Shown here: in pieces, positions 488 to 51,198 of the stretch
How the letters are laid out: each line of letters begins with the position of its first letter
How positions within the stretch are numbered: the first letter of the stretch is position 1
Assembly (NCBI RefSeq): GCF_022201045.2
Contig: NC_068558.1
Span: 10,383,501-10,447,500, forward strand
Direction of reading: 5' to 3'
From: Citrus sinensis
Taxonomy: Eukaryota; Streptophyta; Magnoliopsida; Sapindales; Rutaceae
Length of the DNA: 64,000 bases
Program-made: the position numbers and the translations under genes
Notes under the pieces: generated by a model
The model's database searches: none
Seen by the model: the letters and a program-made list of their open reading frames with translations, nothing else
Told to the model about the DNA's origin: nothing

Positions 488-2357
488 CTGCTGTTCTTCC
501 TTTGACATGTGCTGGTTAATTGATGTCTGAAGGGCTCTAGAACAAGATGCTAACTCCTTTGGGAAACTTTCATCATTTTGCGTATAAGAATTTAGCAGCT
601 GAAAAAGATGATCAAAAAGATTGCTTTCACCCTCATGTTCAAGGGAGTATTTTCTTGCCACATTCTTTACACGTATATCAAGAGCTGGAAAGATGACCTG
701 CATTTTTTAGAAAAATCATTCACTCATAAATTCTAATTTATTAGTTTTCTTTTACCCCAAAAGGTGGATACAGCAGATTAGGAAAGAGAATTTAAGTCAA
801 TTGACTATAAGATCCCTTCTTGATAACAGGGTAAAAGCGATAGAAATATAGCACATATGCTCCATATTGTTACCATTAACAAGAGCTCAAGAGAACTTTC
901 CTAAATTCACTTCGAGAAGCACAAGAAGCAGCAGTTACTAAAAGTCTTCATTTTTATAAATACGGTTTCAATTGGAAAAATAGTACACAAAATGCATTTA
1001 TGCTCAACAGCTGATTGCAAGCATTACATTATGCATATAACGTAGTCATTAATTGTCTATCGATATTTATTAACTTGAAAAGGTAGAAAACCAATATACC
1101 TAGTGAAGAAAGGTGGCATGTGAAACAGTAGGAATGCGTTAACTAATGGCACATATATGTACCTTCAGGTAATGTAAAATATCATGCAGAAACAGAAGTT
1201 TGCACCACTAAATTCCAAAAGTGACCATCCTATAGGAGTATTATTAGCTATCAAAAAATTTGGTATGACCTAAGTCAAGCAAGAGAATATGCCCTTTGTT
1301 TGACAAAAAACAAAACTACAAACATGCCCCTCGCCACCCACTTTTCCGCATAGTTTGGAACCATCGTATTAGGAAAATTTGCAGTGCTATTCACAATAAA
1401 TCACTGCATTTTCAAGAAAACTACATAGAGGAATTTTCAAATAAAATAAATGTATTGATATACTACATCACTTCAATATAAAATAAAAACATTAAACTTT
1501 GGTCTCCTTAAATTTGTGTTTCCTTCTTATTCTTCTTTTGGTGGGAAATGTAATAAAAATGAATTTAGGAAATACAAGATTATGAAGGGAGAACATAAAA
1601 TAAGTCCCAAATGAAAATTGACAGACAACAGTGTTTATAAAGAAAATGAAGTAAAAGCAGTGGAAAAGTAATAGCTGAATTTTCATTTTTCTTTTGGAAT
1701 TATCCATTTAAAAATATAGAATTAGTTCTATCATTCAATTTAACTAAAACTGAAATTTTGAAAGAACATATGAAAACACAATTAAATGCCACACACTATC
1801 AGCTTTCAAAGTACAATTTTTTTGCAACATGCATGTATCAACAAGAATGTAAAATATAATAACAAAGCTAAATATTTTAAAATTCAGGAATTTTAAAAAT
1901 ATGATTTTAAACTTACAGGTTAGAAAAAAGAAATTAAATGCAATGAGAAAGCAGCTCACATACTAATTTAAAATTAATATCCAAAAAATATATTACACTA
2001 AACAAACTAGAATCTTACAACATTTATACAGCCACAGTGATTTTAAATCTTTTCAAAAAATCTTACCTCATCTTCAGCATTGGAGTGATGCTTGTAAACG
2101 GAGTGCAAGAAACGGTACCGTTCGGACAACGACAGAATTTCGACGCGGTGACCAGTGGCGAAGTTCATGGCCAATTGGTGAAGCGCGTCGAGCTCATTGC
2201 GCACCGCTTTGTGGAAGAAACAAAAGATCAAAATCGGCGAGTCGTCGTCTTCTTCTTCGTCTAGGTCCGAGCTCTTCGAAGACGACGGCGACGTCGTTTC
2301 GACAGATTCTGTGACGACGGCGTCTCTCCGCTGCAGTTCCGGCAACAACGTCGTCAT
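488..2357 (-). CDS. BTS: BRUTUS-like zinc-finger/hemerythrin E3 ubiquitin ligase, first two coding exons (partial)
   Basis: Seen: coding exon 1 is 2357-2067 (97 codons, ATG start, Ser- and Asp/Glu-rich N-terminus) and ends at a GTAAGA donor. Exon 2 is 697-488 (70 codons), follows a TGCAG acceptor and ends at GTACAG. Both junctions are phase 0. The joined 167 residues form the first hemerythrin-like domain: the stretch beginning PILIFCFFHKAV, then HHSNAEDE at the exon 1 end, VIFPALDIRVKNVA at the exon 2 start, and LEHEGESNLFDHLF and HMSKEEQQ, which supply His/Glu iron ligands. Known: BRUTUS proteins carry several hemerythrin domains plus CHY, CTCHY and RING zinc fingers. They bind iron and target bHLH factors of the iron-deficiency response for degradation in the nucleus. 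Exon 3 should begin with a stretch like VFPLLIEKF; it is not found in 1-487, so the rest lies beyond the left edge. A BTS-like paralogue (BTSL) is less likely from the wording of the domain. Confidence 0.9.
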
Positions 2358-2550
2358 TTTTTTATTTTGTCGTTATGTGCAAAAAGTTTCTTTCCGTTCT
2401 GTTTTTGTTCGGATACGAAGAGCAGAGGGGAGAGAAGCTGAGGTGTTTGTTTGGTTTGGTTTGGTTTGGTTGTAAAATGAATTTATTTTTTTTTTATTTT
2501 TTTGAATTTTTGAATTTTAATTTGCTTGCGAAAGTGATGACAATTTGTAA

Positions 2551-2663
2551 TATTTATATAGTTGACTTGGTGCCACGTGGAGAGGTGCTGCCACGGGGAT
2601 GCTGATGTAAGCAAAGGGCGGTCCAAGTACTAAAGTGAGAGCGAAGGTGGGTGGGGGCACGTG
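2551..2663 (-). promoter_or_regulatory. Core promoter of the BRUTUS-like gene: TATA box and two G-boxes
   Basis: On the minus strand TATATAAATA lies at 2560-2551, about 190 bp before the ATG, implying a 5' leader of roughly 160 nt. Just upstream is the palindromic G-box CCACGTGG (2573-2580), and a second CACGTG core is at 2658-2663. BRUTUS genes are iron-deficiency induced through bHLH proteins that bind CACGTG-type E-boxes, so the sites fit the gene. Their use here is inferred. Confidence 0.55.
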
Positions 2664-5600
2664 AGGAGAGAGTTTTGGATAAACCGATAAAGCAGGAAAA
2701 AGCGTGATTACTACGTCGTTTTGTGTGTGTGAGAGACAGAGACAAGCGCGTGTGAAAAGACCACTTGTTTAGGTTGCGGAAATTGTGCAAAAGAAATGGG
2801 AAAAATTAAAAGGCGGGGAAGGTGAAATTACGAAGCAGCTAATATTAATTGATGGATATTTTAATGATAGTGTATAATTATATTAATTATTTTATTATAT
2901 ATTTATTTTTTAATCTAAAATTATTTATGTGTATTTTAATTAGAAAGATTTGTCTCACAACCACCTTAAGAATATTGAAAGTATAAATAATTACCATAAG
3001 TTTAACAAAAAAAAAATAATTAGTTGATAAAAAATTAAATCTTAAAGTGGCTCTAAGGTATTATCATAAATTCATGATGTGTGCTTGCATTTTTCGATAT
3101 TCTTAAAAGATTTAGAGGATTATTTCCCTTTTACTTAATAGAAGTTTAAATCATATGTGAATTCTAGTTATTAAAAAAAATTATCAATTTTAAAATATAT
3201 GTGAGAGAGAGAGAGAGAGATTTTAAAAATAGAGGAAAAAACATACTTACAACATCCACATTTTGCGCAAATGCACATGCAGACTTCTTTGATTGAAGTT
3301 TCCTAATAAAAGGGAAGAGAGAAACGACTTAGTCCTTCAAAGAAATTATGAATTTGAAGAAACGAGAGGGGATTAAATTATTGTCATAATCAAGGTCATC
3401 AATGTAAGAATTGACCGAAAATGAAACATAATAATGGATACGGGCTTGAGGTTAGTGGCCGATTGTGGCATTAAGAGGGCACAAGATGATTGTGTGAGGA
3501 GCGTGTCACGTATTAGTCAGCACTTGATCATCTCATGCCTTCTCACGTCGTCGTTTGGACAACACATTCCCTTTCTCTTAAGTAATTGATTATTTGACTA
3601 ATCGACCCTTGAAAACCGGACATAAACCATATTAAAACATCGTCTGCCTTCAAGGTTGTTGGGCGTCCCTAGATTAAGCTAATTAGGTGACAAATTAAAA
3701 AAATTCATCATTTCTAGCTTCAAGATCATGCGTGTTGGGTGACGATGTATCCCTTCTTAGTGGCGTAGGTAGAAAATCGAATTCACGACGACAAAATTAC
3801 TTTTCTAACATAAAATACAAACAACCTCGAATCGATCTCAATATATAAAAGAAACTCCCAACGTCGAGAGAGATTTGAGATTCCATAATTAACCCAGCGA
3901 ATGCTTTCTATTTCTAAAAAGGACTTGCAAAAAGAAAATTAAATATAAACAACCGTGTTATTTACAGTAATATTTATATATCGATATTTTTACTTGATAC
4001 ATTTACAATTGGCTTTGTATTATAGGCTTCTTGGGCGTCTGTATGCTACTATGGTGTATCAAAATTTTAGCTAAAAATCAAGACTTTTTAGCTTTTAAGA
4101 GAAAGGCAGCAAATTGTCAAAATTGTCAAAAGTGAAAATATGATTTTAATTTTTTTTGAAAGAATTTAATAGATTAAATTCTAAAATTAATGAAATAATT
4201 AATCTAATAAAGACAAATGTATAATTTATTGCCGAGCAAGACAAAACACATTTTCGAAAATTTTATTGGCTCTGCCACCGTCCTTTCTAGATATCCCAAC
4301 GCGCTGATTTTTCCCCTATATTCGTCAATACAAAAATTGACACTCATACTACAATAAGATCTCAATAATAGTCCATTGCATTGCTTGTAAACTAATGTAA
4401 ATATCTATAATGAGAGAAATTCTATAATATATCTGTTGTATTATAATTAATTAATACATATATTATATATGTAATTGAGTTTAATACAACCACCACTTAC
4501 ATGATAATGTATAAAATAAATACACACATATCATGATATTATTTACTTATTGTATTACTGACATGGTACAAAGATGTATTCTAAAATTACTCCTATTATG
4601 AAATTTATTTACGTAATCAATGGGGTGAAATATCTTTTTTTTTTTTTTTTGAAATCCTTTCTTTAATATGACTTTAAGAGTAATTAATTATTAAAACTAA
4701 ATTTTTGTATCAAACTTATTATTATGTGCAAGAGACACGTTCTTGCGATTAAACTAATCGATGATCTTTATATTGATCCACTAAGATTGACCGACTAAAA
4801 CCACTTTTCATGCGGGATCTCTCCACTTTTGCTGGATCAGTACAAGCTTTTAATTGTGATTCAACCTTTTTCTTGAGTATTATTTTTTTTCTTATCTTAA
4901 TCAAGTCATATCATTTTCCTTAACCCCTTTTGCCACTCTCCTGGTATCTTCTATTGTTTATAAAGATACTTTAGAAGCATTTATTAATGCTTTAACATGC
5001 ATGGTTGCTCATACAACCACACCTTATTTTTTCTTAGTATTTCTTTAATATTCTATTGCTTAATTTAATAAATTAAAGACAATGAATCTTAAAGATCTGT
5101 CTTCTCTTCTCTTATTTTATTTGAGTGCAGGGTGTGTTTCGAAGTGATGTGTGGCAGTTAAGCTGTCAAAATCAACTACTAAAGTGTTTAGTAATCTTTT
5201 TATAGTTAATTTTTGATAGTTCAATAGTTATTTTTTCTCAATTCTACTTTATAGTTATAACTTTTACCCCACATCAATTACAGCTTAAAGATTACAACAT
5301 CTTACTCCCAAATACATTTACAATCATGGTTCAAAACATAGGACCCTTTACGTAGATAGTAATATTTTAACACACCCTAACATGTGTTACCGACGGCTTC
5401 CGATGAGGAGAAAATCTCCTACAACACACGGAGAGACTTGAATAGGCCGCAAGCTTTGATAATGAAACGACATGCATATGAGATGTTCATTACTCAACCA
5501 ATGAGTGCTTGCCAAGTGTACCAATAATGTTAATAAATACGTTGGAGAATCACAAAGAAAGTTGGGCCAAATGTTCATCAAAGTGGCCAGTATTGTGGAC

Positions 5601-6709
5601 AAGTGGACAGTCAAATTGAACGAAAATGGGGGGGAAGAAGTTGCTCTTTATCTGGGCGCATGAAGTGAGTGCTTTCAAAAGAGAATCCATTTCTTCTTAC
5701 GTGCATGTCACTAGAACCAAATAATACACATCTGAACAAATAAGACCGAGGTGCTTTTTCAGTCAAAAGAGTAAAATGGACAATTAAATTAATGCTCATC
5801 TACTCACGTCACCATTTTTGTCATGGCATTCTGCTTTAGATTCAATGATATGAACTAATGCGGCAAATAACAGCACTCGGTGACCCCAAAGTGAGGCAAA
5901 ATTTCTACCATTTTTTTTCTTTTTCATGGGTTCACCAATGCAAACTTGTGGTTTTTTTCCAGATGGGGTTGATTGGTTATTGCTTTGGGGCTACTCACTG
6001 TCCAATGCGCTTTTGTGCGGAGGAAATGGGGTCGGTTTGATTTTGAATTTTGACTCAGCGTCATCAATTATATACCAAAGCAAGATTCAAAAGAAGATAA
6101 CTTATTGATCTTTTTTTTTTTTTTGAAAAGGAAGATAACTTATTGATAGATGAGTAAGAATATGCTACAATGCGCAAACTGAATTATTGTGATTAAATAT
6201 CACAAACTCACAATCATCAAATTTCAGAATTTTTAGTTGGGAATTGGCACATTCATAGAGATGAGACCCTGGCTGGTCCGATTAGGATTACACCATTGAC
6301 AAAAAGGAAGTCACTTCTCTCGAAAATAATGTGTTTTTCTCTTGATCAGGGATTGGATTTCGGTCATTTCAGTATTTATTTTGTTTAATTTGTTGGTAGT
6401 GAAAAGACAATTCATTTTGTTCTATTGCTCAAAGTTGATGAATCAGCAATTCAATTATTTTGAAAGCAATTGGAATATTATATACGGTGCCGATCAAAAG
6501 CATTTCCAGTTGATATTAAAGGGAATTTATGATCAGACCTGATGATTTGGACTATTAGCAATCTGATCAAAAGTTTTGGAGAGTTGGACCTAGGATGTCT
6601 AGTTATATATCAAACTAAAAATACTAGTCTATTATATGTCAATATCCAACAAAAAAAACTAGTAAGAATGGCAATGAGGTGGGTTTGGAGCAGAGATTAT
6701 TATCCTTGT
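2664..6709. other. Intergenic, AT-rich, no gene recognised
   Basis: No open frame here resembles a known protein. Small features: a (GA)9 microsatellite at 3203-3220, long A/T homopolymers (for example T14 near 4636), and a 17-bp direct repeat flanking a T-tract at 6093-6147. The part at 5130-5330 looks like a decayed MITE, with GGGTGTGTTTCG at one side and CCCAAATACATT at the other, but its ends do not pair cleanly. Confidence 0.5.
6093..6147. repeat. 17-bp direct repeat flanking a poly(T) tract
   Basis: GAAGATAACTTATTGAT occurs at 6093-6109 and again at 6131-6147, separated by a C, about 15 T and GAAAAG. A long direct repeat around an A/T homopolymer is the footprint left by L1-type retrotransposition of a very short, 5'-truncated copy. 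Here almost nothing but the tail would remain. Polymerase slippage duplication is an alternative. Confidence 0.4.
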
Positions 6710-43616: not shown

Positions 43617-45451
43617 GTACATATATTTAAGGGATATTATCAATGGTTCCTCTAACTTTCAACTTAATAAGTTCGAAAATACACAGATATCAGAAGCAAC
43701 CACCTATCCACTGGGGTTTGTCTGGGGGATCACAAAACAAATTTTTTCGCATACCTCCACTAGTGTATATTGAAGTCACCGGCTAAAATGGTTATTAACC
43801 TGTTATTTTCAAAAAGTTCAAGTAGTTAAATACTAATTATTCTTTTATGTAATCGGTAAATACTTGTTTAGACCCATATTTTAGACTTAATACTTATTTA
43901 ATTCTTGTATTTTGGGAAAAATTTTGAAACACCTATACCATTTGTTATGCAACGGTTAAAAATTATTTTTTATTAACTTTTACAATAACACTTATAATGT
44001 TGACTAATGGAAGATAAGTGCCAAGTAAGTTAACTTTTTTTTCCATTTTATTGATGTTCTTAAGATTGTTGCTTAGCCCACATCTTATATCAATTAATTT
44101 CAAGGAGATTATTGTAAAAGTAAACAAATAGTAATTTTTAATTGCAAAATAACAAATAACAAGAATGTGGGTATTTTATAAATTAAATGGGCTAAATAGA
44201 TATTTAGCCCAAAATATATGAATTGAACTGAGTATTAGGTTACCAAGTCAGTTAGGAATGTTTATTGTTACATTATTACTAGTAGAAATAATAATTAAGA
44301 TTAGATCTAACTTAAGGGTCTGTTCCTTGTCATTCATAAGATGTCCACCTTAAAGCCATTAGAATTTTTGGAATCTTTGTCAATTGACTCAACTACTTTG
44401 GGGATCGTTATTTTAGTGACAACATATTCGTTCAGGGGACATGGGGGAAAAAATATGCATTAGAAATGGAAGCGTTTTACTTGGTAAAAATCCTAGGGAG
44501 GAAAGGAGCTTAAAAATTCAATTTGGAATTGTCTACATCTACTTTTTAAAAAATTAAAAATGAAAATACCGCATGATCATTTTCGTAATTTTGTTGTAGC
44601 TGCAAATTGGACCAAATTTCCCATTTGGTATTAAGGTGTCATACCGTAAAAGTTATAATTACTGTTCAAATAAAAATTTTGATAGAACTAGTAAAGATGT
44701 TACAAGTTTTTTATTATATAAAAATTGAATTAAATTATTCTAATTTTTAAATTAATATGTAAAGATGCTCCAGTTTGCAAACCATAGTACCAAACAGGGT
44801 CCAATACTTGTTGAATGGACCATGCAGATGCAATTTATTGCATCATTTTGTTGCAAATTTCGCTGGGTATGCAGCCGACCATTTATTTTATGATTACGGA
44901 TTGCCCATGCAAGACTCAAAACAGTCCAACTTCCATTTTTTGTTTCCGTGATCAACTGCCATCGTTTTTCTGTTTCCGTCGTGGAAAATTCAAATCAAAC
45001 TAAAGAAATTAAAATCTTCTTGTCAAAACAAACTGTTTCTCTATTTAGTATTCACCTGAAAAAATCACTGCGAATCGCTTTCGCAATTGCTCTTCTTACA
45101 GTCAAAAAATCCCGAATATCCTACTAGAATTATTTCCAAGATTTCCAATACAATTAACATTTTTCACTGATTTACTTAAATCTTGTTAAATAATTATTAA
45201 TAATTTAATAAATAATACATCACATATCATATCGTTTGAAAAAAAAAAGTTAAGATAAAAATTTAAAATATCATCTACCATTTCGATTTGTTAATATTCA
45301 TGTTGCCCTTTTCCGGCCATTGGTAAGGTTGCTTTGCTGGTATGTTTGTCTTCATAGTCACTTTCACCGTTTGCTTAAAATAATCTCAATCTACATTTTA
45401 CCTACCAAGTCTGCACTAATCTCTCTCCATGACCTTTTGCAAAACTTAATC
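43617..45451. other. Intergenic upstream of the LRK10-like gene
   Basis: No coding region is recognised. Two stretches recur farther right: GTAGCTGCAAATTGGACC (44598 region) resembles 55014-55034, and CGTGGAAAATTCAAAT (44980 region) resembles 49756-49773. These are probably upstream pieces of duplicated LRK10-like genes. Confidence 0.45.
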
Positions 45452-48400
45452 ATGGGCAAAAGTATCCTCCCAGCACAAATTCGACACTGCATCCCCACAA
45501 TCGTCTGCTTCTTTATTGCAGTACCGGCATCTTATAGCGACGTAGATGAACGGTATGCATTATGCAGTAGGCAGTTCTATTGTGGGACATTGTCACCTGA
45601 TATCGGGTATCCTTTCTGGGGAGACGGTTTTAGGCCACGGTACTGTGGTCGCCGAGGATTCCGTCTCCACTGTCAAGGCTATGGGAATCCGATTCCGAGT
45701 CCTAAAATATATATGGAAAATGAAAGTTTTCAAGTTTCAGGAATTGATGGCGGTCGTCAAACGATGACTATCACCCCTGCTCGACTTGATTTGCTTGGTG
45801 GTTATTGTCCTTCAGTCGAATGGCCGGAAACAATTATCAACCACACGCTCTTTAGTTACAGTGAGACCGTTCGAAACCTCAGCAAGTTCTTCAATTGCAG
45901 TGGTGGGTTCACATCGGTGGGTAAAAATAACTTCAGCTGTCCTTTAGAAGATGGAGTTATAAATGGCTTTTATACCATCGATGGTGACTTTGGCCCACTG
46001 CTTGAAAATCGTAGCAGCTCTTGTCGCAGCGTTGTCAAAGTCCCCGTTCAATTGACAGCTTCCAATTTTGATTATCTTACAGCTGGAAAGTTGAGTGAGG
46101 TTTTAATCCAAGGGTTTCAGGTGCGATATCGCGCGGACAATGAATCCTATTCGGCATGTTCGTCTTCACAAGGCATATGCGGATCTAACGAGACTTCAGA
46201 TGAATTTGCGTGTCTTTGCCGCGATAAACCCCATATGTCTACCTGTCCAACTGGTATGCTTACTTCCTTCTCATGGTCATCCTCTTAAATATTACGGTAG
46301 GAGGTATTAATATGAAATTAAGTTCTTAACAAGGCTTATATATAGAAGCCTACCATAGAAGGGTGACAAGCTTATAAGAGAGAAGTCCGTGCGCTGAGAA
46401 GGTCTTTGGTGCTTTTGGAGCATTGCTCTTCATCTATTCAGTGCTTGCCACGAAAGTATGCATATTATCATGATTGTTTGAAACATACAAGTGGCAAGGA
46501 ATGATGAGAAAAATGAGCAGTATTTTAGGAGCACCCAAGACTTTTTCCCATGTGCTTGAGACGGGGCGAATGACGAAGCCATTTATGGAAACTGATTCAG
46601 TCTCCTCCAATTGCTTCTGTGGGCAAAGTTTGAACTTTGTTTTTGCAATTACATGCTGGCTTTTCTTGTTGGTTAGAGTTAGTTTTGGTTGCTGTTTTCG
46701 TCACTAAAAATTCAGAATATTGATTATTTTTCTATTGGCCCCTATTGCTTATGGATTCTTTTACTCTGTTTTCCTCTTTTTGACTGATTGCATGTTCTGC
46801 CAGTACAAGTGTTAGAATTTTGAGCTTGTTCTATCTAGTCTGAATTTGAGGCTTGATTGAAGTGAGAATTTGTGCCTGAATTATGCACAACAAAATATCT
46901 GCAGTACATATGGGTGTCTGTACAGTCTGTTGCTGACTCTTCCTTTTTTTACCTTGAATTACAGGCAAAGTTCAGAGCGACAGACTGAAGCTTGTCATAG
47001 GTAACCGTAAAATAGCGACCTAATTCTTTTAGCTTCATCTTTTTCACTGCATTTCAAACTTTCCAACTTAGCGTGTCATATATTCTTGTGAAGTTTTGTG
47101 ACTAGCTGATGAATATTTACAGTTTAACCCAAGATTCCACAAAGATGGTAGACAACATAGTGCAAGAGCATGATAAATTTTAATATCAAACAATTAAAAG
47201 CTTGGAAAACCTTTTATGGATAAAAAAATCTAATTAATCTTGAATTAGTTCATTTCATCCTTATCAAATTATTAAAAGAAACAAAACCAATATCTGTACT
47301 ATAGTGACATTTTTCATTGAAAGCGGAGTTGTGAGTAAAAGAGTTTATTAAACAAAACAATAGTAATCTAGCTAGCTATTAACAGAACCGAAGAGATATA
47401 ACAAAGCATTTTAGGGGCTATTCCATGTTGACAATAGAGACAACTGCCGCTGCAGAGATTGTGGCAACTTTTCAGTTTTGTTTTTGTAATTAATTTAGCT
47501 ATGCAAAGGCGGAAGATGCTGGACAATTGTTCATACGTGCCAGATTATTTGTCTGCCTCTTCCTGACGGTTCGGAGTTATGGTTTCACTGTGAATATTCT
47601 GAAGGACATCAATTATTTCTACACTATCTGCTTCATGCTTGTTCGCGTTGCTTTTCCTATATAGGTTTAATCGTTGGAATAATTGGCATAACAACCGCCT
47701 GCATAACTATGCCTTCCGCTGTGGGTTATCAACCTACCCTTAGTACCGAAATGGGTTCTTTACAAGAAAGAATTACTTCTACCAAAGAGGGGTCCATAAC
47801 TTCTATTCAAGCAGTTTATGTACCCGCGGATGATTTGACTGATCCCGCTCCTGCCACGACATTTGCCCATTTAGATGCTACTACCGTACTATCAAGAGGA
47901 TTAGCTGCTAAAGGTATCTATCCAGCAGTTGATCCTTTAGACTCAACGTCAACTATGCTGCAACCTCGGATCGTTGGCGAGGAACATTATGAAACGGCGC
48001 AAAGAGTTAAGCAAACTTTACAACATCGAAGAAGTTCTCATCAACTCTGTCAGCGGCCTTTCGTAGAAAGATAACAAAGAGTGATAAAGATCTTGAGGCC
48101 TTCATTAGAAACTATGGACCTCTTCCTCTCAAAAGATACAACTTTTCGGATGTTAAGAAAACAACCAACTCATTTAAAGATAAGCTTGGCCAAGGAGGAT
48201 TTGGCAGTGTCTACAAAGGAAAGCTGTTGGATGGTCGTTCGGTAGCAGTGAAGCTCCTAAACGCTTCCAAAGGGGATGGACAAGATTTTATTAATGAAGT
48301 TGCAAGCATTAGTAGAACATCCCATGTCAATGTCGTCACACTACTAGCCTTTTGTTTGGAGGGTGACAACAGAGCTCTTATCTACGAGTTCATGTCGAAT

Positions 48401-51177: not shown

Positions 51178-51198
51178 GGGGGGGGGGGGGGGGGGGGG
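51178..51198. repeat. Uninterrupted run of 21 G
   Basis: G21 is followed by AGAGAGAT. Poly(G) of this length is rare in AT-rich plant DNA. It can form quadruplexes and is error-prone in sequencing, so the exact count is uncertain. Confidence 0.9.

Follow-up and report, generated by a model that had tools for sequence, protein, structure and literature searches.

The stretch of Citrus sinensis DNA analysed here (the window, 64,000 nucleotides) is part of C3, a contig of 52,308,633 bases, in an 11-contig assembly that totals 299,734,781 bases. Its domains identify one of its genes as an LRK10L/WAK-like receptor kinase of the disease-resistance type, the name LRK10L-2 / WAK-like receptor kinase being taken from database titles. 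Pfam recognises GUB_WAK_bind (E = 1.6e-12), WAK_assoc (1.7e-15) and kinase (1.4e-43) domains, and as in other LRK10L-2 / WAK-like kinases these are combined with a membrane helix and with clustered paralogs, here on C3, C2 and C6; the nearest paralog matches listed are on C3 (73–82% identity over the kinase), followed by C2 and C6. Unlike its relatives, the orange allele carries a piece of plastid atpB in the membrane exon and lacks about 14 nt there. The gene is organised as follows:

45452..46253, + strand: exon 1, with a signal peptide-like start and the GUB_WAK_bind plus WAK_assoc ectodomain (Pfam), its end set by the match to database proteins P0001–P0004
46965..47000, + strand: exon 2, 36 bp, encoding the stalk of the ectodomain as far as the membrane helix; included in P0001 and P0002, missing from P0003 and P0004
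47665..47708, + strand: start of exon 3, host sequence encoding the first part of the membrane helix
47709..48024, + strand: plastid atpB insert, AtpB residues 292–396 of 498, in sense orientation and in frame with exon 3
47709..47913, + strand: part of the insert kept as coding in a 713-residue model, 68 AtpB codons plus one base
47914..48053, + strand: candidate 140-nt intron, with the donor GTATCT from plastid DNA and the acceptor CTGTCAG from the host exon
48010..48011, + strand: acceptor AG within the plastid insert, very weak (−7.63 bits), preceding the exon that starts at 48012 in P0002 and P0003
48054..49108, + strand: last exon, end of the juxtamembrane region and kinase domain, open to the stop (Pfam Pkinase / PK_Tyr_Ser-Thr)
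48072..48074, + strand: TAA stop of the unspliced frame, ending a 415-residue product without kinase

Insert aside, the 713-residue model is open throughout, and the ectodomain and kinase frames are otherwise undamaged in the exons read. Parts of the 5′ flank and of exon 1 (45380–45523 and 45764–46022) are repeated at 87–100% identity at three dispersed sites (C3:46.89 Mb, C5:31.74 Mb and C1:9.56 Mb) that retain and omit the same portions, perhaps as a captured or duplicated fragment. A nearby paralog fragment (L013; G000:C3:10512500-10521500, minus strand) contains the membrane/juxtamembrane segment, and its similarity to the gene ends about 100 bp past that segment, before most of the kinase domain, as in a truncated copy. 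Positions 51178–51198 form an unbroken run of 21 G amid AT-rich sequence.

All 316 positions of the insert agree with atpB on contig C11 (132.5 kb, taken as the plastid) and with the copy on C10 (632.5 kb, taken as the mitochondrion), and the identity to plastid DNA stops abruptly at the 47709 and 48024 edges. It is thus, as in a NUPT, plastid sequence with nuclear flanks in a chromosome, the flanks being those of a member of the receptor gene family. This confirms the chloroplast atpB fragment of about 316 bp that an earlier sequence-only reading had placed in a receptor kinase, and the identity to plastid atpB supports the organelle origin proposed there. C10 and C11 align over 5,960 bp at 99.98%, with no mismatch and one gap, atpB included (L010, G000:C10:311000-320999, positions 543–6501), a stretch explained either by transfer from plastid to mitochondrion in the very recent past or by an assembly error. 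Since C10 carries the same 316 bp with no difference, the plastid and C10 are indistinguishable as the immediate donor. Further nuclear atpB pieces listed for the genome are all shorter; the next two in length are 90% and 91% identical, and one piece of 70 bp is 100% identical. Alignment of the insert with the species' own atpB, suggested earlier as a means of dating it, reveals no substitution in 316 bp and the insertion is therefore recent, with an approximate upper bound (95%) of 4.3 or 1.35 Myr for assumed substitution rates of 2.2e-9 or 7e-9 per site and year, respectively.

The empty site, which the earlier reading had proposed to look for in relatives, is found there as protein sequence. 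P0005, from a 51.2-Mb contig of Citrus x aurantiifolia, and P0006, from a 50.5-Mb contig of C. sinensis, both have a 21-residue stretch running through the insertion site, and their identities to P0001 over the aligned part (88.9% and 88.0%, respectively) make them probable orthologues or alleles of the window gene. P0006 (contig of 50,541,887 bases) is devoid of 16 residues, the VAVK lysine among them, which suggests possible damage or misannotation in this copy as well. The alignment comprised 11 of the 12 Citrus receptor rows among 120 listed matches plus two Melia rows, 13 rows altogether, P0020 (868 aa, Citrus, unrelated extra domains) being omitted; within the 11 Citrus rows, the segment is intact in the paralogs P0010 and P0011 and missing from the models P0009, P0012 and P0014.

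Relative to P0005 and P0006 the gene has lost ICIF plus two bases (14 nt); the T of ACIT is retained, as is the final base of the Thr codon that follows. By eye, a 14-nt difference is seen for the paralogs L011 and L012 as well, and a 14-nt loss supplies the 2 mod 3 extra nucleotides that the joined flanks require. The first bases of the insert are AT and the last AC, and Ile codons start with AT and Thr codons with AC, implying a 2-bp microhomology at both edges as deduced from the amino acids of P0005 and P0006, not from empty-site DNA. The 14-nt deletion and the shared AT and AC match an end-joining scar, which has no target duplication, a small deletion and 0–7 bp of microhomology, and point to end-joining repair of a double-strand break. 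The scar left by organelle DNA filling such breaks displays microhomology of 1–7 bp or is blunt, according to a review (PMC7037861).

The exon starting at 47665 reads in frame into atpB and then meets the TAA at 48072–48074, as had been claimed, which results in a 415-residue product when the transcript is left unspliced. Four exon joins reproduce four database proteins, P0001–P0004, letter for letter. P0001 (713 aa, C. sinensis) connects exons 1, 2 and 3 with the 140-nt intron 47914–48053 removed, P0002 (644 aa) joins exon 2 to 48012, P0003 (632 aa) joins exon 1 to 48012, and in P0004 (618 aa, C. clementina) exon 1 is followed directly by 48054. P0001–P0003 are all on one 52.3-Mb contig, equal in length to C3, and P0001 represents six clustered sequences. 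The splice route predicted to give a 713-residue receptor is thus identical to an annotated C. sinensis protein, in which the insert is read in frame: donor AAG/GTATCT and acceptor CTGTCAG/CG are located as described, at 47913/47914 and 48053/48054, and removal of the 140 nt restores the frame with 68 AtpB codons. At the level of annotation, the route exists. Two features were absent from the earlier account, namely the acceptor at 48011/48012 inside the insert and the lack of a membrane segment in P0002–P0004, three of the four annotated proteins assigned to the allele. The sequence of P0004 itself contains no part of the insert; its model skips the membrane exon, which fits the presence of the insert in clementine. 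Among 120 listed matches of 7,998 candidates for a query of P0001 residues 250–400, P0001 is the only fusion, and P0005 also covers these residues, as the empty form, at 55% identity. The DVS annotation combined BRAKER-trained predictors with Mikado transcript assembly from 80 RNA-seq sets, a pipeline relevant to P0001–P0003 if they stem from that annotation.

The signals of the candidate intron are of unequal quality. Its donor scores 3.20 bits, the best of the 17 GTs in 47665–48060 and within the top 1.8% of window GTs, against 3.60 and 1.37 bits for the gene's own donors. The acceptor at 48053 scores 1.01 bits, within the top 11.4% of window AGs, against 6.81 and 3.81 bits for the gene's own acceptors, so that its description as a good acceptor was overstated and mediocre to fair is more apt. 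The weight matrices use approximate Arabidopsis-like frequencies, and the bits are therefore only a ranking aid. A branch-point-like TTTAC places its A 33 nt upstream of the acceptor, in plastid sequence. The intron thus has a GT at 47914 and an AG at 48053, and the relatives P0005 and P0006 are without it. It does not have the AU- and U-rich composition of plant introns, however: its AU content of 0.56 and U content of 0.25 compare with 0.62/0.37 and 0.67/0.34 in the gene's introns, and 677 of 916 kinase-exon windows of 140 nt are at least as AU-rich, which makes it exon-like. The existence of an in-frame route means little in itself, since single-intron GT-AG routes that restore the frame number 55 when any strength is allowed; the pair used by P0001 is the highest scoring. 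When 316-mers drawn from 9 kb of plastid DNA were placed at the site, 328 of 17,370 provided an in-frame donor as strong (234 of 17,062 with windows containing this very donor excluded; 84 of 5,715 nuclear control 316-mers), and a donor at least equal to the gene's own exon-2 donor was provided by 1,384 of 17,370 (1,271 of 17,062 without this donor; 250 of 5,715 nuclear controls). The splice route is unusual (about 2–8%), not extraordinary, and such cases get noticed preferentially.

The reading that we favour, with a probability of roughly 60%, is that of a young, allele-specific and gene-damaging insertion with a partial or leaky predicted splice rescue, mainly a damaged allele and not yet a new receptor. 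A double-strand break would have hit the exon that encodes the membrane helix of an LRK10L-type receptor kinase, presumably on the sweet orange chromosome set that is mostly of mandarin origin. In Valencia orange the DVS_A set is of 97.1% mandarin origin (about 290.3 + 8.7 Mb), and we infer that the window belongs to DVS_A and that the locus is of mandarin origin. The break would have been sealed with a 316-bp scrap of atpB, straight from the plastid or via the near-identical C10 copy, the loss of about 14 bp of exon, seen in the sequence, being attributed to that repair. The frameshift would leave the plain transcript encoding a 415-residue ectodomain, membrane helix and AtpB stub with no kinase, a possible kinase-less decoy. 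Cryptic sites, the donor at 47914 and the acceptor at 48053, are predicted to circumvent the frameshift and give the annotated 713-residue fusion, and the database-annotated joins of exon 1 or exon 2 with 48012 or 48054 would give forms without the helix. The identity of the insert, its sharp edges, the empty site, the four matching joins and the top-scoring donor all support this reading. Against it stand the exon-like composition of the intron, the mediocre acceptor and the possibility that frame-forcing predictors and mis-mapped plastid reads could yield P0001 without real splicing.

The main competitor, tentatively held at about half that weight, is that the allele is simply dead, P0001–P0004 being products of gene finders forced to a full reading frame and misled by plastid reads. 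A frame-forcing program would find one of the 55 in-frame routes, and the pair chosen is the top-scoring one. The insert is identical to plastid atpB, so plastid RNA reads would map there and could mimic exon coverage; the abstract of a published study describes cpDNA as almost fully transcribed in RNA-seq data (PMC6258696). The exon-like intron and the loss in the fusion of the basic residues behind the helix also suit a dead allele, as do LLAFC and FMSNG in P0001–P0004, where the other nine aligned proteins have LLGFC or LLGYC and FMPNG, changes that may reflect a mild relaxation of constraint. The intact ectodomain and kinase frames speak against simple inactivation, though so young an insert allows no time for decay. 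The acceptor before 48012 is harder to account for. It is worse than 92.7% of window AGs, and its use in P0002 and P0003, when the stronger 48053 would equally keep the frame, suggests that intron evidence underlies these models; a signal-driven predictor alone would hardly pick it. Killing of the gene, offered earlier as the alternative outcome, is thus still a serious rival, from which the 48012 acceptor detracts.

A functional receptor formed by the 713-residue fusion, with a juxtamembrane segment of plastid origin, appears improbable. The fusion corresponds exactly to an annotated protein and the kinase retains its main motifs, and a best 19-residue hydropathy of 2.42 (2.38, 2.42 and 1.85 in three paralogs) indicates that the membrane helix can form. 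The cytoplasmic side of the helix is nevertheless altered: the 20 residues behind it contain one K/R against five in P0005, most of the basic residues that followed the helix in the ancestral form of the gene having been lost, while the lumenal side has three in both proteins. In addition, the 68 AtpB residues are a piece of a soluble enzyme fold placed out of its context, and with no substitutions the insert displays no sign of selection. The predicted structure of P0001 (13-row alignment; mean pLDDT 28.8, pTM 0.20) is uninterpretable. The earlier proposal that organelle DNA supplied both an intron and a new juxtamembrane segment therefore stands as to the origin, the empty site and the annotated splice model; the intron belongs to the level of annotation, and AtpB residues may have a juxtamembrane role. 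A larger scheme, in which one repair event provided part of a coding exon, a donor and most of an intron, the fusion is made and signals, and soluble isoforms arise through the plastid-supplied acceptor, is similarly doubtful. An assembly chimera of nuclear and plastid reads, compatible with the 100% identity to plastid, is highly improbable given the 14-nt target loss and short shared bases resembling a repair scar, the clementine model on a different contig that also skips the membrane exon as expected with the insert, and, if the window derives from it, a published assembly of about 420x long reads with a base accuracy above 99.999%.

The locus has partial precedents. Noutsos et al. 2007, as reported in the review (PMC7037861), described 45 organelle insertions with a part in 49 protein-coding exons of 34 genes. 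As in those cases, organelle DNA inside a nuclear gene adds coding sequence; unlike them, the orange insert has kept 100% identity to its source, is confined to a single exon and is predicted to contribute, all at once, coding sequence, a donor, the larger part of an intron and an alternative acceptor. Spliceosomal introns derived from mitochondrial DNA in double-strand breaks, including a Daphnia intron that resembles mitochondrial 16S, are mentioned in PMC3443670, referencing Curtis and Archibald 2010. There too organelle DNA was put in by end joining and is removed as an intron (a prediction in orange), whereas here the ultimate source is a plastid gene, the intron takes up only a portion of the insert, and its acceptor is supplied by the host exon. 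The sequence, scar and youth all fit an ordinary gene-breaking NUPT, from which the locus differs in its annotated in-frame products that circumvent the break. In open-licence literature no title or start of an abstract concerned this locus and the clementine gene name was unmatched, and the accessible part of PMC4256211 held nothing relevant under organelle terms.

Organelle-derived exons and introns of mitochondrial origin are thus both already known, and at this locus a single fresh insert of plastid DNA would unite the two. Its source sequence, the empty site as protein and the scar of the repair are all readable, the insert is still unmutated, and sweet orange, being a hybrid, probably carries the filled and empty copies side by side. 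The locus therefore poses the question of whether a gene-breaking organelle insertion can be rescued by splicing at once, to which existing sweet orange RNA data are applicable. If the fusion is made and signals, a working new receptor would be striking, and the insertion would represent an allelic splice switch of organelle origin, segregating in a crop, that selects between membrane-bound and soluble forms of the receptor.
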